Below are positions 54,806 through 64,000 of a stretch of 64,000 bases of DNA, in pieces (within the stretch, counting starts at the first letter, position 1; every line of letters starts with the position of its first letter). The stretch is taken from assembly GCF_000336385.2 (NCBI RefSeq), contig NZ_HG424443.1:17863-81862 (forward strand), in the 5' to 3' direction. The position numbers and the translations under genes were made by a program. This stretch comes from Lysobacter antibioticus HS124. GTDB lineage: Bacteria; Pseudomonadota; Gammaproteobacteria; Xanthomonadales; Xanthomonadaceae. The notes below the pieces were generated by a model that ran no database searches, was not told the origin of the DNA, and worked only from the letters and a program-made list of their open reading frames with translations.

Positions 54806-55690
54806 TCAGCGCAGGTGGGTCTGCGGCTTGGCCGGCGCGGAGGCGAATTCGCCGCTGGGATCGTCGATCAGCGGCGGATTGGCGCGGATGCTGCGGTACA
54901 TCGCCGGTACGCCGCCGCGGCGCAGGCACTGCAGCACGATGTGCGAAGTGATGCGGGTGAAGTCGCGCAGCGGCTTGAAATGGCTGGCGCGGAACTGCTC
55001 GTCCGAATCCTGGCTCCGGTAGCGCGATTCGATCGGCACCGAGACGCAGCGCGTGCCCAACTGCTGCGCCGCCGACATCAGGATCTGCGCCTCGAACACG
55101 AAGTCTTCGCCGGGCACCTCGCGCAAGGCCATGACTTCGGCCGGGTACAACCGCTGCCCGCTCTGGCTGTCGGCGATCTGGTAGCCGGTGCCCCAGGCCA
55201 CGCCCCAATCGCCGAAATTGTTGGCCAGCCGGCGGTAGGTCGGTTGCGCCGCGCGCTTGCGCAGGCGCGCGCCGATGACGATGTGGCCGGGATGGCGATT
55301 GGCGCTGTCGATCAGGCGCGCGATGTCGCTGGCCGAATGCTGGCCGTCACCGTCCATGGTGACCGCGGCCAGAAAGCCGCGGCGCAAGGCTTCGGCGAAA
55401 CCGTCGCGCAGGCTGGCGCCCTTGCCCTGGCGCTGGGCGTGGCGCAACACGGTCACCGGCAGATCGGCGATGCGCTCGCCGGTGCCGTCGTCGGAGCCGT
55501 CGTCGATCACGATCACGTGCGGGCACTGCGCCAGCGCGCCTTCCACGACCTCGCGGATGCGCAGGGCTTCGTTGAGCGCGGGAATCACCACGGCGACGTT
55601 GTTGCGGTCCAGCCGCGCGGCGCGCGGTCGGTCGGCGGTGTTGCCCGGGGCTGCTGCGTCGCGTCGCGGCGACCCGGCGAGATCAGTCAT
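54806..55690 (-). CDS. GT2 glycosyltransferase of aryl-polyene cluster
   Basis: 294 residues. VAVVIPALNEALRIREVVEGAL starts the GT-A domain and VIVIDDGSDDGTGERIADL and AVTMDGDGQHSASDI contain the metal-binding acidic residues; DTDSGQRLYP-like QIADSQSGQRLYP follows. It probably adds a sugar to the lipid to which the polyene is attached. Its ATG overlaps the stop of the chain-length-factor-like gene by eight bases, so it belongs to that transcript. Confidence 0.88.
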   Translation of the reverse strand: MTDLAGSPRRDAAAPGNTADRPRAARLDRNNVAVVIPALNEALRIREVVEGALAQCPHVIVIDDGSDDGTGERIADLPVTVLRHAQRQGKGASLRDGFAEALRRGFLAAVTMDGDGQHSASDIARLIDSANRHPGHIVIGARLRKRAAQPTYRRLANNFGDWGVAWGTGYQIADSQSGQRLYPAEVMALREVPGEDFVFEAQILMSAAQQLGTRCVSVPIESRYRSQDSDEQFRASHFKPLRDFTRITSHIVLQCLRRGGVPAMYRSIRANPPLIDDPSGEFASAPAKPQTHLR

Positions 55691-56516
55691 GGGCGAACTC
55701 CACCCGCAGAATCCGGCCGGCGCCCGCCGGCAGTGCGAGCCGATCATGGCCCGAGGCCAGGGCGTCGAACAAGGCCAACATCGGCGCGCCGGCGTTGCCG
55801 GTTTCGCGTCCAGACAGCTTGCCGCCGTTGGGCCAAGCGGGCTCGCCATCGGCGTCGTCCATCCACGCGGACAGGCGCGGCCCGTGCGCCGCGGACGACA
55901 CGTGCGCCAGCACCAGCGCGGCGCCCAGCAGGCCGCGGCTCGGCGCCACTTCCTGCAGCGGGCCGGTGGCTGCGCCGTCGTAGCCGACCAGCAGCACCGC
56001 TTCGTCGCCGGCGGCGAGTTGCGCCAGCGCTTCGATCAGGCCCTGGGCGAAGCTGGCTTCGAGCGCGCTGATCGCGGTCGCCGGGCGCATCGCGCCGGCG
56101 CCGATGGTCCAGTAGCCGGCGGCGGCGTTGTGCACCGAGTTGTGGAAGCGGGTCGGCGAGATCGTGCGCGGCTCGCGGGCAAGGGTGGCGCACATGTAGT
56201 CGGTGATGGCGATGTCGCCGTGGCTGGAGGCGAACACCGACGGCAGGCTGGCCGGATCGCGGCCGGCGTCCTGGCAGGCCGCTAGGGCCACTTCCAGCGC
56301 CACCGCGACCGTATCCGGCGCGCGCCGGCGCTCGTTCGGCGCCAGCAACTGCGGCGAGGGCCGGCTCGGCGCCGCTTCGGCGTCGCTGCCGTGGGCGACG
56401 AACTCGCGCGCCGCCGCCCACGAGGGCAGGCCGCGACTCCAGTAACCGATGCCTTCGACGATGGCGCTCAGGCCGGCGGACGCGCCGGTGCGGGGTTGCG
56501 TGACGGCGGAACTCAT
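55683..56516 (-). CDS. Beta-ketoacyl synthase-like protein (chain-length-factor type)
   Basis: 277 residues, shorter than a complete ketoacyl synthase. ALEVALAACQDAGRDPASLPSVFASSHGD and NSVHNAAAGYWTIGAGAMRPATAISALEASFAQGLIEAL match the N-terminal ketoacyl-synthase-2 family (PF13723-like) of aryl-polyene clusters. The usual active-site Cys of the nucleophilic elbow is not visible, so it probably acts as a partner of the synthase at 56513. Its start overlaps the stop of that gene by four bases. Confidence 0.85.
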   Translation of the reverse strand: MSSAVTQPRTGASAGLSAIVEGIGYWSRGLPSWAAAREFVAHGSDAEAAPSRPSPQLLAPNERRRAPDTVAVALEVALAACQDAGRDPASLPSVFASSHGDIAITDYMCATLAREPRTISPTRFHNSVHNAAAGYWTIGAGAMRPATAISALEASFAQGLIEALAQLAAGDEAVLLVGYDGAATGPLQEVAPSRGLLGAALVLAHVSSAAHGPRLSAWMDDADGEPAWPNGGKLSGRETGNAGAPMLALFDALASGHDRLALPAGAGRILRVEFAHD

Positions 56517-57712
56517 GCGCGGCCGAACACCAGCGAGCAATTGTTGCCGCCGAAGCCGAAGGAATTGTTCATGGCGTAGCGGATCTCGGTGCGGGCGTCG
56601 GCGAAACGGATCTGCGGGCCGTTGCCCGGGTCCGGCGCGACGCTGTTGAGCGTGCCCGGCAGATGACCGCGCTCGAGCGCGAGCAGGGCGATCGCCGATT
56701 CGACGATGCCGGCCGCCCCGAGGGTATGCCCGGTCCAGCCCTTGGTCGAACTGGCGTGCAGGCCGGGCGGGAACAGCCCGGCCACCGCCAGCGCCTCGAT
56801 CGAATCGTTGGCCGGCGTGGCGGTGCCGTGCAGGTTGAGATAGCCGACCTGGCCGGCGTCGATGCCGGCGCGGGCGAGAGCGTCGCGCATCGCCAGCCGC
56901 GCGCCCAGGCCTTGCGGATGCGGCGAGGACATGTGGTGGGCGTCGCTGGACTCGCCGTAGCCGCACAGTTGCAGCGCGGCCTCGTCGCCGGCGTCGAGGC
57001 GTTCGAGCACGGCGAAGCCGCCGGCCTCGCCCAGCGACAACCCGTCGCGCTGCGCGTCGAACGGGCGGCAGGGCGCAGTCGACACCAACTGCAGCGAGTT
57101 GAAGCCGAACAGCACGCTGCCGCACAAGGTGTCGACGCCGCCGACCAGGGCCGCGTCGGCGAGCCCGGCGCCGATCAGGCGCGCGGCCTGGGCGAACACT
57201 TTGGCGCTGGACGAGCAGGCCGTCGCCACGGTCACGCAGGGGCCGCGCAGGCCGGTGGCCGCGGCGACGAAGGCGCCGAGCGAATGCGGGGTATGCAGGG
57301 ACGGCCGTGCCAGGTCCTCGGGAAAGCGACCGTCGTCGCCGAGCCGCGCATAGGCCTCCTCGGTGGCGCCGATGCTCGAGGTCGAGGTGCCGACGATCAC
57401 CGCGACCCGCTCGGCACCGTGGCGCGCGACGGCGGCGGCGATCGCCGTTTCCATGCCGTCGGCCTGCAGGCTCAGCCAGGCCAGGCGATTGTTGCGGCAG
57501 TCCCAGCCGGCCAGAGGCGCCGGCAGGGCGGCCTCCTCCAGCCCCTCGACCCGACCGATCCAGCAGTCCAGCGGCGCTTCGCCCGGCGCCAGCGGCACCA
57601 GATCGTTGCGGCGCAGGCCGCTGCGGCGCTCGCGCAGGGCCTGAGCCTGGGCCTCCAGGCCGCGGCCGAGCGCGGTGGTGGCGGTATAGGCGCGGACCGC
57701 CAACGGCGGCAT
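56513..57712 (-). CDS. Beta-ketoacyl-ACP synthase of aryl-polyene cluster
   Basis: 399 residues of the FabF type. The nucleophile Cys166 is in VATACSSSAKV, His295 in NLHGTATPANDS and His329 in TKGWTGHTLGAAG, and the family end NNSFGFGGNNCSLVF is present. It performs the condensation that lengthens the chain, presumably together with the chain-length-factor-like protein downstream. I chose the ATG at 57712; an in-frame GTG at 57733 is possible. No strong ribosome binding site is seen for either. Confidence 0.92.
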   Translation of the reverse strand: MPPLAVRAYTATTALGRGLEAQAQALRERRSGLRRNDLVPLAPGEAPLDCWIGRVEGLEEAALPAPLAGWDCRNNRLAWLSLQADGMETAIAAAVARHGAERVAVIVGTSTSSIGATEEAYARLGDDGRFPEDLARPSLHTPHSLGAFVAAATGLRGPCVTVATACSSSAKVFAQAARLIGAGLADAALVGGVDTLCGSVLFGFNSLQLVSTAPCRPFDAQRDGLSLGEAGGFAVLERLDAGDEAALQLCGYGESSDAHHMSSPHPQGLGARLAMRDALARAGIDAGQVGYLNLHGTATPANDSIEALAVAGLFPPGLHASSTKGWTGHTLGAAGIVESAIALLALERGHLPGTLNSVAPDPGNGPQIRFADARTEIRYAMNNSFGFGGNNCSLVFGRA

Positions 57713-57897
57713 CGGAGCGGGTGCGGACGTCACGTAGTCGGTAGAATCGGGCGAGGGGAACCGCCGGCAGTATAGCGAGGGGGCCGCGGGGCCCGCCGGG
57801 CCGCCCCGGCGGGGCGCGCTGAACGCTTCATCGGCCGCCGCCGCGCGCACCCGGGTTTTCGTCCACACAGGTCGCCGAGGTTTTCGCGCCGCATCGC

Positions 57898-58581
57898 ATG
57901 AGCAGTCGCCTGTCCCATCGCCTGTCGTTGTTCGGCGACCGCGACGTGCTGCACGTCGCGGCGGTGGCGTCGGCCGCCTGCGTGCTCAGCGCCGGCCTGG
58001 TCTACGTCGGTTACTTCGTCCATGTCCTGCGGGTGGCGCGCAATGCGCCCTGTCAGCCCGAGCGCGGCGAGTGCGTGTTGCTGTTCGGCAAGCACGCGCC
58101 GGGCGGACGCCTGGACCACGATTTCGAAGCGCGCCTGGACCGTGCGGTGTCGTTGTGGCGCGAACGGCCGCCGGCCAGCGTGGTCCTGCTCGGCGGCGGC
58201 GCCGACGACGAGCCCACCGAAGCCGAGCTGGCCCGTTCCGGGCTGCTCGCGCGGGGGCTGTCCGCCGATGCGCCGTTGCGTCTGGAGGCCGAATCGCGCG
58301 ACACCCTGCAGAACCTGCGCAACGCCCGCGCACTGCTCGGCGAGGGCATGCGCTCGCGGGTGACCCTGCTCAGCAGCCGCTACCATTTGGCGCGTTGCGC
58401 CTTGTTCGCGCGCCAGCTCGGCTACGACTGGGAACTGTGCGCGGCCGAGCCGCGGCTGCAGCTGAGCCCGCGCATGCTGTTGCGCCTGGCCGGCGAAGCG
58501 GCCTACGTGTGCATGAGCGACATCGGCGCGCGCTGGGCGCGGCTGATCGGCAACCGGCGCATGCTCGAGCGGATTCGCTGA
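57898..58581 (+). CDS. YdcF/DUF218 family membrane protein
   Basis: 227 residues. One membrane segment (LHVAAVASAACVLSAGLVYVGYFVHVL) is followed by the DUF218 pattern: CVLLFGKHAPGGRLDHDFEARLDRAVSLW, VVLLGGGADDEPTEAELARSGLLARG, LRLEAESRDTLQNLRNARALL and VTLLSSRYHLARCALFARQLG. Members are thought to act in envelope or cell-wall metabolism (SanA/ElyC type). It is divergent from the ketoacyl synthase and may not belong to the pigment pathway. Its stop codon lies within an ATTCGCTG tandem repeat. Confidence 0.85.
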   Translation: MSSRLSHRLSLFGDRDVLHVAAVASAACVLSAGLVYVGYFVHVLRVARNAPCQPERGECVLLFGKHAPGGRLDHDFEARLDRAVSLWRERPPASVVLLGGGADDEPTEAELARSGLLARGLSADAPLRLEAESRDTLQNLRNARALLGEGMRSRVTLLSSRYHLARCALFARQLGYDWELCAAEPRLQLSPRMLLRLAGEAAYVCMSDIGARWARLIGNRRMLERIR

Positions 58582-58624
58582 TTCGCTGATTCGCTGATTC
58601 GGGATTGGGGATTGGGGATTGGGG
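58573..58624. repeat. Tandem ATTCGCTG (x3) then ATTGGGG (x3)
   Basis: ATTCGCTG occurs three times in a row from 58573 to 58596 and includes the YdcF stop codon. A partial copy is then followed by ATTGGGG three times (58604-58624). The second unit resembles the GGGATT repeats at 16143. Such tracts can vary in copy number by slippage. Confidence 0.8.
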
Positions 58625-58939
58625 CGATGCTGCGGGCGCACATCGCCGGGGCGGTCCGTGCGGGGGCGACGGATGTCGTTTTTCCTTGTTTTCGAGGCTT
58701 TTTACGGGTCCCGGACGGTACGGCGGCGGCGTCGCCCGATTCCGGGGCGGGGGCCGCGTTGCGAAGCCGCTCACGGTTTGCGTGCGTGGCGGCGAAGGCC
58801 GCGCGGGCATGGGCTAGAGTCGGGGCAGCTTCGCTGCGGGCGTACGGAGGTACGCGCGGTACGCCGCGAAGCGCTCGTGCGCGGAGTCGCCGTCGGTGTC
58901 TCTCCGCGCGTCGCAACGCGTCGTTCAAGGAGAGCCATC
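58625..58939. other. Leader region upstream of RiPP peptide genes
   Basis: 315 bases with no protein-like frame of its own, although a longer frame passes through it. Short hairpins occur at 58825-58837 (gcagcttcgctgc) and around 58850-58868 (gcgcggtacgccgcg-type). The gctagagt at 58813-58820 resembles a -10 region but I find no -35 at a proper distance, so the promoter is unproven. AAGGAG lies at 58927-58932 before the first peptide. Confidence 0.5.
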
Positions 58940-59095
58940 GTGAAGCAATCCAGTACCGCGAAAGCGTCCGCACCGGTCGTCGCACCGGTCCCGCGCGTCA
59001 AGCTGCAACCGACTTCGGCGCCGCTGAGCAAGCACGCGCCGGCCTCGGCCTCGTACGCGCCGCGTTCGTGCAGTCGTTTCATCTACTGCGTCTGA
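58940..59095 (+). CDS. RiPP precursor peptide A
   Basis: A 51-residue peptide starting at GTG (VKQSSTAKASAPVVAPVPRV) and ending ASASYAPRSCSRFIYCV. AAGGAG lies seven bases before the GTG. The front part is basic, Pro/Ala-rich and without Cys, as expected for a leader; the only cysteines (44 and 50) are in the last eight residues. The C-terminus aligns with that of peptide B as S-[YF]-x-P-x-[ST]-C-x-R-I-Y-C after a one-residue gap. A LanM-like enzyme and two JmjC-like genes follow, which makes a precursor role likely. It is below usual annotation size; no homologue is known to me. Confidence 0.8.
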   Translation: MKQSSTAKASAPVVAPVPRVKLQPTSAPLSKHAPASASYAPRSCSRFIYCV

Positions 59096-59159
59096 TCCTG
59101 CGTCCCTGGCTGCGGCGCATCCGCGCTGCGGCTCGCCAACCGTCGAAGGAGATGGTCCG

Positions 59160-59312
59160 ATGAAGATGAAGAAGTCCAAGCCCGCCCCGACCACCGCGTC
59201 CAAGCAGCGCCAGGCCGTACCGGCGCTGGCGATCGGCGAACTGCGCAAGCAGGCCGCTTCCGGCGCGAGCTTCGTGCCGGCCACCTGCCGCCGCATCTAT
59301 TGCATTCCGTGA
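59160..59312 (+). CDS. RiPP precursor peptide B
   Basis: A 50-residue peptide (start MKMKKSKPAPTTASKQRQAV, end SGASFVPATCRRIYCIP). AAGGAG lies eight bases before ATG. The front half is very basic with no Cys; cysteines 43 and 48 are the only ones. Its C-terminus matches peptide A (S-F-V-P-A-T-C-R-R-I-Y-C against S-Y-A-P-R-S-C-S-R-F-I-Y-C) although the front halves share little. The conserved [ST]-C pair and final Y-C are candidate sites of modification. Two precursors in tandem suggest a two-component or alternative-product system. Confidence 0.82.
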   Translation: MKMKKSKPAPTTASKQRQAVPALAIGELRKQAASGASFVPATCRRIYCIP

Positions 59313-59320
59313 GCGGCACC

Positions 59321-59345
59321 GCGGCCGGCGCCTCGCGCCGGCCGC
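59321..59345 (+). terminator. Perfect 11-bp hairpin between precursor and modification genes
   Basis: GCGGCCGGCGC at 59321-59331 pairs with GCGCCGGCCGC at 59335-59345 around a three-base CTC loop. There is no T-run after it, so it is more likely an attenuator or a 3'-end stabiliser than a full terminator. In lanthipeptide operons a hairpin between precursor and enzyme genes keeps precursor mRNA in excess; the same role is inferred here. Confidence 0.7.
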
Positions 59346-59370
59346 GCCGTTGCGAGGGCGACGCGGCGCG

Positions 59371-61746
59371 ATGAGCGAATCCCTGCTGGACCTCGCGCCC
59401 GCGCCTGCGCGTGCGGCGCCGCCCGCTTCGCCTGCCGCCCGTCGTCTGCTGGCGGCTGTGGCCGGCGGCGGCTCGGCCTGGTGGTGGCCGCGGCGCGCGC
59501 GTATCGGCGAGGACGGTTTGCTCGTCCCTTTGCGCGCATGGCGCGGCGCGCGTGCGGCGCGCCGCATCGGCGCGGCCTTGCACGACGCGCGTCTGGCGCC
59601 CTGGCTGCGTTTTCTCGATGCGCTCGATCGCGATTGCGCCGCGCTGGCGCGCGCGCATGCGCGACGCGTGGCGCCGTCCGCACTGGCGCTCGACAACGGC
59701 GAGTTGCATGCGCCGGTGCTCGACCTCGCCCTGCATTGGTGCCTGGCGCCGCGCCGCCCGCGCCTGGAAGCGCGCCTGCGCGCTCTGCGCGAGCGCCACC
59801 GTGAGTTCCTGGCCTTGTTCCTGCGCCGGCTGCGGCGCGATCTGCGCAGCGGCGCGCTGCAGCGGCAGGCCGGGGCCGACGGCCGCGTCGCGGCGTTGTG
59901 GGCGCATCCGGAAGAAACCCACCACGGTGGCCAGCGGGTGCTGCGTGCGACCTGGGACAACGGCGTCGCCCTGGCCTACAAGCCGCGGCCGGCCGATGCC
60001 GAAATCGCCTTCCTCGGCGCCGACGGCGTATTCGCCTGGATCAATGGCCTGCGCGGCGGCCCCGCTGCGCTGCGGCTGCCGACACTGAACAGTTTTCATG
60101 GCGATGGCCGCGATCGCGACTATCTGTGGCAGGAGTGGATCGGCGCGCCGCCCGGCTACGGCCGCGTGCGCGGCGGGCCGCTGCGCGCCGTACGCTTGAG
60201 CCGGTCCCGGGCGCGACGTCTGTGGCGCGACGCCGGCGCATTGGCCGGTGCCTGCTTCGGCTTCGGCCTGGTCGACCTGGGGCCGGGCAATGTGGTCTGC
60301 GGCCTGCGCCGCGGTCGCCCGCAGTTGTTACCGGTCGACCTGGAGGTCTGTCTGTTTCCGGTCCAGGGCCTGGAGGACACCGGCCTGACCGTCGGCGACC
60401 GCGACCGCGGCCGCTATCCGGCCGGGTTCGAGCGCGATCCCGGGCGCGGCGACAGCGAAGGCCCGGACTGGGCGTTCTTCGATGCCGACGACGGCTCGGC
60501 GCGATTGTGCGCGGTGGCGCGGCCCTGGCGGCGCGAGAGCGCGCCGGGGCTGGTCGCCGATCGCGACGGCCGGGTCGGCTACGGCGCCTATGCGCTCGAT
60601 TTCCTGCGCGGCTTGTTCGATCTGTGGATGCGCATCCATTGTCATCGGGACGCGCTGGGCGCCGCCGTGGGGGGACGATTGCGCGGGCGCCTTACCCGGG
60701 TGTTGTTGCGGCCGACCCCGGCGTACGCCGAGGCCTTGGATCCGTTCGCCGGTGCCGCACCGGACCTGCGCGGCTATGTCGCCGCCGAGCGCGCGCAGCT
60801 GCGCCGCGGCGACGTGCCGTACTTCTACACCCGGCTCGACCGGCCGGCGCCGTTGCTGACCTTGCCGCCGCCCCGCGGGACGCCGCACGCCGTCGCCGGG
60901 CGCTTGCCGCATCCGCGCGCGCAGCTCAATCCGCAGCCGGCGCGCGCGCGCGGCGAGGGGTTCGGGTTGCTCGATCTGGCGGTCGCGGCGCGCGACGCGA
61001 TCGCCCACGTGATGGCCGATCTGAGCGCGGCGCACGGCGTCTGCGGCGAATTGCACGAACCGCGCCTGGGCGTGCGCCTGCAATGGTGGGGGGCGCAGGA
61101 CGGCGAGGCGTGTTTCGACTGGGCCCGGCAGGACCGCCGGGTGATCTGCCGCTGGCAGGGCGAGCAGGTCGGCCTGCGGGTGGAGGCCTTGTCGGCGCCG
61201 GCCGAGCCCGCTGCGCCGCAAGACGACGCCGAGGCGATGGCCGCGCGCCTGCTGCGCATCGACCGCATCGACGCGGCCCTGCGCACGCCCTGGACCGACG
61301 GCGGTTTCGCCGATCCGGCATTGGAGGCCAGGCTGGACGCGCATGTGCGGGAATCGATGGCATGGTTGCAGGCGGTGGTCGATCGTCACGGTTGGCCCGG
61401 ACGCACCCTGGTCGGCGAGGCCGCGGCCGCGGCGGCCTGCCGCCTGCTGCAACATGCCGACGGACCGCGGGCGTTTCAGGACCGTTGCCTGCGGCTGATC
61501 GCGGCGGCCGCGCGCGCCGGCGACATGGCACTGCGCGAACTGGCCTATCTGACCGACGCCCTGCGCGTGCAGCGCGGGCGCAAGCAGCGCTACGGCACCA
61601 AGTTCCGGCGGCGCGGGCAGGGGTTCGAGCCTTGTCCGATCGAGCGCCCGGGCCAGGTCGACCACCGCCGCCTGGCGATGGGACTGGAGCCGTTGGCCGA
61701 GTACGCCGAGCGCATCCGGCGCCAGTTCGCGGCGGCGCGCGGATGA
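59371..61746 (+). CDS. LanM-like DUF4135 dehydratase with C-terminal DUF6624-like domain
   Basis: 791 residues. The central part (about 185-430) matches the lanthipeptide dehydratase domain: ALAYKPRPADAEIAF (Lys204), VDLGPGNVVCGL (Asp302, Asn307, but Gly304 where LanM has His in D-x-H-x-x-N) and LLPVDLEVCLF (Asp323). Instead of a LanC cyclase domain the C-terminal part (about 625-790) contains RIDRIDAALRTPW, VDRHGWPGRTLVGEAAAAAACRLLQHAD and KQRYGTKF ... DHRRLAMGLEPLAEY, a DUF6624-like domain. It probably phosphorylates or dehydrates Ser/Thr of the upstream peptides. ATG 59371 is chosen; a TTG at 59350 would add seven residues. Its stop overlaps the next start. Confidence 0.82.
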   Translation: MSESLLDLAPAPARAAPPASPAARRLLAAVAGGGSAWWWPRRARIGEDGLLVPLRAWRGARAARRIGAALHDARLAPWLRFLDALDRDCAALARAHARRVAPSALALDNGELHAPVLDLALHWCLAPRRPRLEARLRALRERHREFLALFLRRLRRDLRSGALQRQAGADGRVAALWAHPEETHHGGQRVLRATWDNGVALAYKPRPADAEIAFLGADGVFAWINGLRGGPAALRLPTLNSFHGDGRDRDYLWQEWIGAPPGYGRVRGGPLRAVRLSRSRARRLWRDAGALAGACFGFGLVDLGPGNVVCGLRRGRPQLLPVDLEVCLFPVQGLEDTGLTVGDRDRGRYPAGFERDPGRGDSEGPDWAFFDADDGSARLCAVARPWRRESAPGLVADRDGRVGYGAYALDFLRGLFDLWMRIHCHRDALGAAVGGRLRGRLTRVLLRPTPAYAEALDPFAGAAPDLRGYVAAERAQLRRGDVPYFYTRLDRPAPLLTLPPPRGTPHAVAGRLPHPRAQLNPQPARARGEGFGLLDLAVAARDAIAHVMADLSAAHGVCGELHEPRLGVRLQWWGAQDGEACFDWARQDRRVICRWQGEQVGLRVEALSAPAEPAAPQDDAEAMAARLLRIDRIDAALRTPWTDGGFADPALEARLDAHVRESMAWLQAVVDRHGWPGRTLVGEAAAAAACRLLQHADGPRAFQDRCLRLIAAAARAGDMALRELAYLTDALRVQRGRKQRYGTKFRRRGQGFEPCPIERPGQVDHRRLAMGLEPLAEYAERIRRQFAAARG

Positions 61747-62936
61747 GCGCGCCGATCGACTGGAGCGGCTTGCGCGCGCACTGGGGGCGTCGCGCCTGCC
61801 GCTTGCCGGGCGCTGCGCCGGCGTTGGATCCGGTCCGGGCCTACGCGCTGGTGCGCCGCGCGGCGCAGCCGTTCCGCGCGGGCACGCGCTTTCTGGCCTT
61901 GCCGGACGTGCGTTTCTACGTAGACGGCGGTTGGATGCGCGCGCCGGGCGATCTGTTGCCCGGCGCCGAAGACGCCGATCCGGCCGGATACGCGCAGCGG
62001 GTGCGGGCGCGGCTGGACGGGCGCCGATTCCAGTTGCGGGTGACCCAGCCGCTGTTTCTCGATTACGAACTCTGGGCGCAGGCGCGCGCGACCCTGGCCG
62101 GTTTGTTCGCGCAGGTCGGTCAGCCGAGTCTGGCGTTGACCGCGACCTTGTGGCTGGGCGACGCCGATGCCGCCACGCGCGGGCCGCAAGTCGAGCCGGC
62201 CGCGGCGAGTCTGCGCCTGCCGCTGTTGGGCGGTTGCCTGGCGCGTTGCCGCCGCACCCGTCCGCGCGCGGCAGGCGCGGCGGGGCGGACGCTGTGCGCC
62301 GATGCGGGCGAGGCGCTGTACTGGCCGGCGGGCCATTGGGTCGAAGAGGCCGATCGGGGCACGACGCTCGGACTGGCGGTGAGCATTCCGGTCGGCGGCG
62401 AAGAAGCGGCGGTAGCGGTCAAGGACCTGTTGGCCGACCTGGTCGACGCCGAACTCGGCGCGCAGGCCGAAGTCGCCATGCTCGACTATCCGCCACGTGC
62501 GCGCGGCCGCGATGCGATCGCGCCCTTGCGCGCGGTCGCCGCGCAGATGCGCAGCGCGGTGGCCGGCGGCGCGCTGGAGCGCGCGTTGCGCGCCAGTTGG
62601 GCTGCGCGCGCCAGCGCGGCCGGCCTGGAACCGCCACCGCCGCCGCGCGCGGACGATGCGCTGAGGCCGGACGACCGCGTCCGCCTGGACCGGCGCAGCC
62701 CTCTGCTGCGGCTGGCCGAGGGCGCGCAAGAGTGGTGGGCCGTCAACGGCCATGTGTTCTCGGTGCCGGTGCATCCGCGGGCGCAGGCGCTGTGGCGGGC
62801 GTTGCGCGAGCCGGCCGCGGCGACGGTCGCGCAGCTGTGCGCAGGGCCGCGCCGGCGCATCGACCCGGGGGCGCTGGCCTTGTTGCAGCGCTTGCACGAT
62901 CTGCGTGCGCTGCAGTGCGAGCGGGCATCGGCATGA
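61743..62936 (+). CDS. JmjC/cupin-like protein with degenerate metal site (RiPP operon)
   Basis: 397 residues. The fold resembles the downstream JmjC gene: LFLDYELWAQARATLAGLF, TATLWLGDADAATRGPQV and GEALYWPAGHWVEEADRG align with it by eye. Where the partner has His-Arg-Asp this protein has Glu151-Pro-Ala153, and where the partner has its second His this one has PAGHWV with the His shifted. It is therefore unlikely to be an iron dioxygenase in the normal way. The C-terminal part (about 318-395), LRLAEGAQEWWAVNGHVFSVPVHPRAQALWRAL, looks like a winged helix. It may bind or present the peptide. ATGA overlap with the LanM-like gene; overlap with the next. Confidence 0.7.
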   Translation: MSAPIDWSGLRAHWGRRACRLPGAAPALDPVRAYALVRRAAQPFRAGTRFLALPDVRFYVDGGWMRAPGDLLPGAEDADPAGYAQRVRARLDGRRFQLRVTQPLFLDYELWAQARATLAGLFAQVGQPSLALTATLWLGDADAATRGPQVEPAAASLRLPLLGGCLARCRRTRPRAAGAAGRTLCADAGEALYWPAGHWVEEADRGTTLGLAVSIPVGGEEAAVAVKDLLADLVDAELGAQAEVAMLDYPPRARGRDAIAPLRAVAAQMRSAVAGGALERALRASWAARASAAGLEPPPPPRADDALRPDDRVRLDRRSPLLRLAEGAQEWWAVNGHVFSVPVHPRAQALWRALREPAAATVAQLCAGPRRRIDPGALALLQRLHDLRALQCERASA

Positions 62937-64000
62937 ACGGCCCCTTCGTGCTGCCGCCGCAGGCGCCGATCGAGCGCGACGCGCTGGACTGGGACACGTT
63001 CGCGCGCGAGGACTGGGACCGGCGCCCGGTGCTGTTCAAGGGCGTGCTCGATCGCGCGGGCCCGTTTCGCCTCGACGAGGTCTATCGCAGCGCCCTGGTG
63101 GCGACCCGGCGCAGCCGCGCGCGCCTGCCGGGCGATCCGGACAATGCGGTGGTGACCTTGGACCGCTTGCAGCAACTCGATCCTGCGCCGTGGATGCCGC
63201 AGGCCGCGGACGGTTCGTTGGCCGGCTATCGGCGGCGCATGCTCGACGCGCTCGGCGCGCGCCGCTACGCCCTGGTGATCAGCGCCTTTCATTCCTTCCA
63301 CCGGCCGTTGTGGCGGCGCGAGCGCGCATTCTTCGCGCCGCTGTGGCGACGCACCGGCTTGCCGTTGACCGGGGCGATCACGACCTTGTTCCACGGCAAC
63401 TACGAGTCGACGCCGGTCGGCGTGCACCGCGATCGCTTCGCCACCTTCATGGTGCCGGTGGAAGGCCGCAAGCGCATGCGCTTCTGGGCGCAAAAGCCGT
63501 GGACTGAAGCGGTGTCGACCTTGCCCGACTACCGCGCGCATCTGGCGACCTCGTTCCTGGTCGAGGCCGGCCCCGGCGACCTGCTGTACTGGCCGGCCGA
63601 CTATTACCACGTCGGCGAGAGCGTCGGCGGCGGCGTCTCGACCAGCGTCAACATCGGCATACCGCGCACCGAGCACCGGCCGGTCTACGACCTGGAGGAC
63701 CTGCTGGTCGAGATAGGCGACGCCGCATCCCTGGTCGATCCGGCCGCGCCGCTGCTGCGCGCGCGCATGCCGGCCGGGGTGGCGGCGCTGTGGGACGCTG
63801 CCGCGCCCGCGCCGGGGCATTTGCCGCCGCGGTTGCCGCCGGCCCTGGAGGCGGCGCTGGGCTTGCTTCGCGCCGCGGCGCAGGCGCCGGCGCTGGCCGC
63901 GCGGGTGGGCGCGGTGTCGCTGCAGCGCTGGTCGGCCGGCGGTTTCGAGCCGGTGCCGCCGTTGCGGCGCGTCGCTCGGCCGCCGGCATCGGCGCGGCTG
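62933..64000 (+). CDS. JmjC-domain 2-oxoglutarate/Fe(II) hydroxylase, probable RiPP tailoring enzyme (partial)
   Basis: 356 residues seen; the gene continues past the right edge. The iron triad is intact: H165-R-D167 in VGVHRDRFATFMVPVEG and H226 in GDLLYWPADYYHVGES, and downstream basic residues could bind 2-oxoglutarate. Overall it matches cupin_8/JmjC bacterial hydroxylases. Such enzymes hydroxylate amino-acid side chains of proteins; here the likely substrate is the C-terminal segment of the peptides (Arg, Tyr, Ile or Pro). Its start overlaps the stop of the degenerate paralogue by four bases, so all three enzyme genes are co-translated. Confidence 0.8.
   Translation, partial: MNGPFVLPPQAPIERDALDWDTFAREDWDRRPVLFKGVLDRAGPFRLDEVYRSALVATRRSRARLPGDPDNAVVTLDRLQQLDPAPWMPQAADGSLAGYRRRMLDALGARRYALVISAFHSFHRPLWRRERAFFAPLWRRTGLPLTGAITTLFHGNYESTPVGVHRDRFATFMVPVEGRKRMRFWAQKPWTEAVSTLPDYRAHLATSFLVEAGPGDLLYWPADYYHVGESVGGGVSTSVNIGIPRTEHRPVYDLEDLLVEIGDAASLVDPAAPLLRARMPAGVAALWDAAAPAPGHLPPRLPPALEAALGLLRAAAQAPALAARVGAVSLQRWSAGGFEPVPPLRRVARPPASARL

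Follow-up and report, generated by a model that had tools for sequence, protein, structure and literature searches.

Peptide dehydration by DUF4135 proteins is a feature of the class II lanthipeptide synthetases (LanM), in which a DUF4135 kinase-lyase half is joined to a LanC cyclase half. For CylM (PDB 5dzt), the roles of the catalytic residues are available from PMC4550811, where alanine mutants of D252, H254, R506, and T512 show phosphorylated intermediates and T512A is without elimination. A divergent DUF4135 also serves a lanthionine-free product in the dehydrazoles, in which the LanMbC enzyme CcaM of carnazolamide carries a cyclase domain of class III type and requires substrates bearing YcaO-made azoles (PMC10676384). 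JmjC proteins are likewise associated with ribosomally synthesized and post-translationally modified peptides (RiPPs), including BpmG of the biphenomycin cluster, whose other core enzymes are an MNIO and a B12-radical SAM enzyme (PMC12257519), and fusions of a RiPP recognition element (RRE) with JmjC in fish and algae, the closest bacterial homologues of which are reported in RiPP-like contexts (PMC12710340). In addition, DUF6624 near graspetide groups has been flagged as a possible undiscovered biosynthetic enzyme class in RiPP clusters (PMC13097080); all five papers are cited for the portions consulted. The present analysis concerns an operon in which a DUF4135 protein, DUF6624, and JmjC-type proteins occur together with short peptide genes, located at the end of a 64,000-nucleotide stretch of Lysobacter antibioticus HS124 (contig NZ_HG424443.1, positions 17,863 to 81,862), hereafter the window. 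It probably directs the synthesis of a peptide with a dehydrated and likely hydroxylated tail, through a kinase-lyase and a pair of one active and one inactive JmjC protein, with no LanC in the operon. The features are as follows.

58940..59095, + strand: precursor A1, 51 amino acids, GTG start, C-terminus ...APRSCSRFIYCV, tail SCSRFIYCV, spacer 4
59160..59312, + strand: precursor A2, 50 amino acids, leader ALAIGEL, C-terminus ...PATCRRIYCIP, tail TCRRIYCIP, spacer 3
59313..59353, + strand: predicted stem-loop lying between A2 and B, with 12 pairs in the inner stem (single-sequence RNA folds)
59371..61746, + strand: B, 791 amino acids, DUF4135 kinase-lyase (dehydratase) domain and C-terminal DUF6624, no LanC
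61743..62936, + strand: C, 397 amino acids, ribosomal-oxygenase/JmjC fold without HxD iron ligands, C-terminal region RRE/winged-helix-like
62933..64000, + strand: D, predicted JmjC_2 oxygenase with H165, D167, H226, and K180, truncated at the contig end

The positions that an earlier sequence-only reading of the window had assigned to the two small precursors and to B, C, and D were confirmed. The length of 50 residues given there for both peptides applies to A2 and is one residue too short for A1, and the four-base overlaps described for the whole strand occur at B/C and C/D, with none among A1, A2, and B. Ribosome sites resembling AAGGAGA were read by eye ahead of both precursors. The window ends with the contig, hence D is cut at 356 residues; its full length in a genome of the same species (L082) is 441 residues. 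Neither A1, A2, nor C has a Pfam or NCBIfam match at E <= 1.

A search with a profile of B recovered 50 loci in named genome records, among others from Lysobacter, Luteimonas, Streptomyces, Kitasatospora, Sphaerisporangium, Nonomuraea, Kribbella, Plantactinospora, and Myxococcus, as well as from Lysobacterales, Nocardiopsaceae, and Catenulispora metagenome-assembled genomes. B, C, and D stand together in 48 of them, the remaining two (L027, L043) being cut by contig ends, and C and D are never absent where the contig extends far enough. The gene order is B-C-D in 40 loci, C-B-D in five, and C-D-B in three. The precursors of these loci were sought with the tail pattern [ST]-C-x(2,5)-Y-C-x(0,4)-stop in all six frames of the 966,849 bases concerned. 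This strict pattern has 60 matches, each of them at the operon, and the remaining sequence of the loci has none; they cover 49 of the 50 loci, in the form [ST]-C-x(3-5)-Y-C-x(1-4), and the single locus without a tail (L047) has a sequence that starts within B. One first-order Markov randomisation gave no match, so a tail confined to the operon in nearly every locus is more than chance. The RiPP-type operon proposed by the sequence-only reading is borne out to this extent, as the peptides are conserved along with the enzymes, and loss of the peptides from loci keeping the enzymes, the outcome it had named as speaking against itself, was not what the loci displayed.

Within the 60 tails, the spacer has three residues in 37, four in 21, and five in two; 43 tails open with Thr and 17 with Ser, and the Tyr is preceded by Ile, Val, or Leu in 50. 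As the four fixed tail residues are built into the pattern, small open reading frames near the operon were also chosen on the leader motif alone, as a check on circularity, and 45 of the 46 chosen in this way carry the tail. This leader pattern fails to catch 15 of the 60 tail-bearing precursors. The conserved leader is LxIGELE-like; its typical actinobacterial form is ELDLVIGDLEQEIP, with shorter relatives recognizable by eye in Lysobacter and Luteimonas, while that of A1 is by eye a weak relative at best. Two or three precursors per locus occur in nine of the 49 precursor loci, the window included, and six of these nine mix spacers of three and four residues. The last 12 residues of A1, APRSCSRFIYCV, are identical in L003 (the same locus as L059), L035, L058, and the same-species L060.

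Protein B matches DUF4135 with 64 bits (cut-off 29) and, at residues 626-780, DUF6624 with 50 bits (cut-off 27). PF05147 (LanC) was not found in B, where DUF6624 occupies the place of the LanM cyclase, and on the NCBIfam LanM model B reaches 35 bits against a cut-off of 304. The LanM-like enzyme of the sequence-only reading therefore stands for its dehydratase half and falls for its LanC half, in whose place that reading had overlooked DUF6624. The profile of B was aligned to CylM with an E-value of 1.9e-5 for the whole sequence, the two aligned pieces being weak singly, and this alignment supplies the numbering used here, with R506 and T512 transferred via the R-x5-T spacing. CylM K274, D347, N352, and D364 correspond to K204, D302, N307, and D323 of B, of which D364 is the least certain owing to gaps there, and the elimination residues D252, H254, R506, and T512 correspond to E182, H184, R443, and T449. 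In a table of 50 rows, from which the L047 fragment is excluded, the mapped residues are invariant except for the change of D252 to Glu in all 49 rows having a residue there, one gap at E182/H184, and T449, which is Thr in 45 and Ser in five rows. CylM H349 has no counterpart in B, where Ile, Gly, or others stand. From these residues, phosphorylation by B looks intact and elimination is likely retained.

Like class II LanM systems, the operon thus combines a DUF4135 kinase-lyase, catalytic residues kept save H349 and D252, adjoining precursor genes, and Ser/Thr and Cys in the core. It differs from them in having DUF6624 instead of a LanC half, a C/D pair always present where the contig reaches, and a very short invariant tail; since the LanC half was sought in B and not found, the operon is not assigned here to the class II lanthipeptides. 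With the dehydrazoles it shares a divergent DUF4135, a lanthionine-free product being a feature of that class in the consulted portion of PMC10676384, but here DUF6624 replaces the cyclase, the partners are of JmjC type, and YcaO is without a match in the window's genome. DUF6624 itself occurs in RiPP clusters in the graspetide case as well (PMC13097080, in the portion consulted). Graspetide chemistry, in contrast, depends on ATP-grasp enzymes, of which there is no match among B, C, and D, the part of the genome searched for them.

DUF6624 is modelled as a compact domain of helices and a beta hairpin, at a predicted local distance difference test score (pLDDT) of 94. Its conserved positions include His, Asp, Gln, and Arg, and it has no clear match in the PDB. 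No function for it was found in the open-access PubMed Central (PMC) literature searched.

The two remaining proteins resemble ribosomal oxygenases (YcfD, NO66, MINA53). The model of C (pLDDT 91) matches these enzymes across nearly its full length, with the JmjC, helical, and winged-helix architecture of their fold, and D matches JmjC_2 (PF08007) with 31 bits (cut-off 22). In D the HxD...H triad and the Lys are kept in 47 of 47 rows. In C the first iron-binding His is kept in one of 48 rows, the Asp in two, and the second His in 25 (short fragments are excluded from both tables). Because C is without HxD ligands in nearly all rows, only D is expected to act as an oxygenase, which corrects the sequence-only reading of two JmjC enzymes, and C is most simply a binding partner of D. 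Ribosomal oxygenases form homodimers. Unlike them, the present proteins are encoded as paired genes, one of the pair lacking the HxD ligands, next to peptide precursors. The biphenomycin cluster also has a JmjC protein within a RiPP cluster, yet the portion of PMC12257519 consulted mentions neither a DUF4135 protein nor an active/inactive JmjC pair; RRE-JmjC fusions are comparable in having a JmjC protein with bacterial homologues in RiPP-like contexts (PMC12710340, consulted in part). No paper treating DUF4135 and JmjC jointly was found in the open-access PMC literature searched, nor was a described class with this exact gene set recognizable among its papers, in agreement with the novelty claimed by the sequence-only reading.

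LanC-like genes on the same strand within 3 kb accompany 17 loci, all from Streptomyces or Nonomuraea. Both the WCYG and the CHG motifs are present in 16 of these genes, L044 showing CHG only, and PF05147 was confirmed for three. The gene of L044 (L044:5387-6479) was called in two pieces, which points to a frameshift or a sequence error. All 17 loci have four-Cys cores (TACGTCAGIYCC-like); among the 32 other precursor loci, 31 have two Cys, and the four-Cys locus L027 ends early. This distribution is read here as LanC serving the two extra Cys, with the shared tail presumably handled without it.

On this basis, a mechanism can be proposed in which the operon would work like a lanthipeptide dehydratase combined with a tailoring oxygenase. 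The RRE-like C-terminal region of C, perhaps together with that of D, would bind the leader, and B would phosphorylate the Ser/Thr beside the first Cys and eliminate the phosphate to give dehydroalanine or dehydrobutyrine, a step proposed because of the conserved catalytic residues and the invariant substrate site. By analogy with the homodimers of ribosomal oxygenases, C and D would pair as a heterodimer, in which D would hydroxylate a carbon in one of the tail side chains, most likely in that of the invariant Tyr; this step follows from the intact triad and from residue invariance only. In keeping with general lanthipeptide chemistry, the last Cys may then add through its thiol to the dehydrated residue and so form a thioether ring, unaided or with the help of DUF6624, and in the Streptomyces/Nonomuraea branch the separate LanC would act on the two extra Cys. 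A dehydrated and hydroxylated peptide, as suggested by the sequence-only reading, would be the product.

Several points weigh against this proposal. Every chemical step is inferred, and the hydroxylation site of D is deduced solely from residue invariance. The loss of H349 and the Glu at D252 mean that B might phosphorylate without eliminating, and the second iron position of C, where His persists in about half of the rows, leaves C possibly metal-binding. DUF6624 may be accessory, because it is missing from B in L041, where it is a separate gene adjoining C and D, in L046 and L052, and apparently in L107. The precursors of the LanC loci are near-identical across Streptomyces and Nonomuraea, so the correlation of LanC with four Cys may be a single event. 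One LanC domain lies elsewhere in the window's genome (G000:C95:46230-47270) in an open frame of 1,019 residues, which is probably part of a separate lanthipeptide synthetase; the same-species genome also has one, in a 1,019-residue frame, and two same-genus genomes have five each, so that a cyclase acting in trans is possible. (YcaO has no match in the same-species genome either, and three in each of these two same-genus genomes.) Finally, transporter-like genes form no cluster shared by four or more of the 50 loci within 3 kb of the operon, among neighbours that were clustered and only partly scanned for families.

Four other explanations deserve consideration alongside this dehydration-hydroxylation reading. 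The operon could be a class II lanthipeptide pathway minus its fused cyclase, with (methyl)lanthionine rings formed spontaneously, via DUF6624, or by a LanC in trans, and with C and D as late decoration. The DUF4135 homology, the conserved CylM residues, the Ser/Thr beside Cys (in every tail, as the pattern demands, and in 45 of the 46 leader-chosen frames), the adjoining LanC genes of 17 loci, 16 with both motifs, and the LanC domain elsewhere in the window's genome all fit such an origin. At 32 of the 49 precursor loci, however, some on short contigs, no gene of the LanC cluster was seen beside the operon, and every one of the 50 loci has C and D as far as its contig extends, so the pair looks more central than a cyclase. 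The low score of B on the LanM model also speaks against this explanation, which, though a serious one, appears rather unlikely. More speculatively, the JmjC pair would beta-hydroxylate the Tyr (or a Cys) and the kinase-lyase would eliminate the new hydroxyl as well as Ser/Thr, yielding dehydro residues beyond dehydroalanine and dehydrobutyrine, with DUF6624 as a LanC-independent catalyst of the Cys ring; a new RiPP class of this kind is doubtful.

It is similarly improbable that B is a kinase only and that a phosphorylated, hydroxylated peptide is used intracellularly, for example as a signal. The Glu in all 49 rows having a residue at D252 and the Ser in five of 50 rows at T512 would suit this idea, given the phosphorylated intermediates left by alanine mutants of D252, H254, R506, and T512 and the lack of elimination in T512A (PMC4550811, in the portion consulted), as would the absence of a transporter cluster recurring within 3 kb in at least four loci and the position of all five Luteimonas operons at one site among genes that look housekeeping-like by eye. 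On the other hand, R506 and T/S512, elimination residues in CylM, are kept, and Glu for Asp is a mild change. The possibility that the small open reading frames are incidental and that the enzymes modify another cellular protein, like ribosomal oxygenases, is suggested by the JmjC_2 membership of D and the ribosomal-oxygenase fold of C; it is very improbable in view of a tail that 49 of 50 loci have at their operon and nowhere else in their sequence, and that 45 of 46 leader-chosen frames carry. Nor does L108, which lacks B along with the precursor, offer a precursor-free lineage with intact enzymes.

The operon represents a candidate RiPP family spanning gammaproteobacteria, actinobacteria, and myxobacteria, with a precursor, a dehydratase, and paired JmjC proteins as the minimal cassette. 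Genome mining based on LanC would be expected to miss it wherever no LanC gene is nearby. With a code as short and invariant as [ST]C...YC, the chemistry lends itself to direct testing, and the operon offers a tractable substrate for DUF6624 together with a test of a JmjC partner without HxD ligands.

Among Gammaproteobacteria, the set is uncommon and its distribution patchy, as shown by C in only one of 369 genomes sampled from the window's class, its own, and by near-full B in seven of 247 genomes of the family, three of which (G093, G073, G092) are the genomes of L003, L005, and L033. The DUF6624 part alone was matched by B in 30 further family genomes. Among 13 genomes of the same genus, counting its own and those of the same species, near-full B is present in four and not in nine. 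With C as the query, ten of 150 genomes from one streptomycete's family were matched, one of them remotely; L010 and L016 were already known, and four of the other eight share sequence with loci of the B profile. This query added two new operons, L106 and L107, each complete with B, C, D, and a suitable precursor, while L113 gave remote JmjC-like matches only. A looser tail pattern applied to the C-led loci gave three extra matches outside the strict definition of the tail. In L108, D and part of C were found, with neither B nor a precursor, and the operon there is possibly decaying or rebuilt. Spread by plasmids was considered and rejected, the sole matching record in the plasmid collection being an 11.85 Mb Nonomuraea replicon. 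The five Luteimonas loci (L005, L022, L025, L028, L037), with the order A-C-B-D, occupy one common site, flanked by genes that look by eye like nuo on one side and rimP-nusA-infB on the other, which is an unusual setting for natural-product genes. L046 is titled Comamonas sp., and its gene order around the operon is that of Myxococcus vastator (L052), so this genome is probably mislabelled.

Two further Myxococcus-type genomes have a C-D-precursor-DUF4135 locus and, elsewhere, a DUF6624-C-D-precursor locus, the latter without a DUF4135 match within 15-18 kb, and such splitting indicates that parts of the operon may work in trans there. Each of these two genomes and that of L041 contains other DUF4135 stretches beyond the one beside the operon, most in LanM-sized frames. 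DUF6624 was also found in 18 other Lysobacteraceae stretches of 3.4-3.7 kb each, in unrelated settings without a C or D match, so gene context was rejected as a guide to its role; it was matched in one of 14 control genomes as well. Several of these stand-alone proteins (L064-L081) have starts that look secreted by eye.

A long GC stem between A2 and B is predicted in six sequences from five distinct Lysobacter-type loci (the window, L003, identical with L059, L035, L058, and L060), from single-sequence folds without a shuffle control, and the stem sequences differ among the loci. Such stems could raise expression of the precursors above that of the enzymes. No match to RNA families was obtained at the gathering threshold. 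Upstream of A1, a promoter scan found none (0.1 expected), and two terminator-like sites lie at 58662-58697 (0.6 expected).

The sequence-only reading had supposed that the right edge of the window might hide a transporter. A transporter directly behind D was rejected, because the open reading frame following D in the same-species genome lies on the opposite strand and resembles a regulator by eye, with relatives at that place in L003 and L035. The clusters recurring within 3 kb in at least four of the 50 loci are LanC, a 5'-nucleotidase, a few genes common to close Streptomyces relatives, and the Luteimonas flanks, and an ABC-permease-like cluster was seen within 3 kb in L031 only. The 5'-nucleotidase gene (PF06189, one member tested) follows LanC on the same strand in eight Streptomyces loci (L008, L017, L026, L030, L032, L040, L044, L050).

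Ahead of the precursors, a DUF218 (ElyC-like) gene occupies 57898-58581, with a relative in the same position in L003 and L035. On the minus strand, 54806-57868 holds genes that appear by eye to be glycosyltransferase-like and ketosynthase-like, possibly of the aryl polyene/xanthomonadin type, and the corresponding place in L003 and L035 is taken by three minus-strand genes that belong to shared clusters. At 58574-58625, in the interval from the DUF218 gene to the precursors, GATTCGCT and GGGATTG are seen by eye to repeat in short tandem runs.

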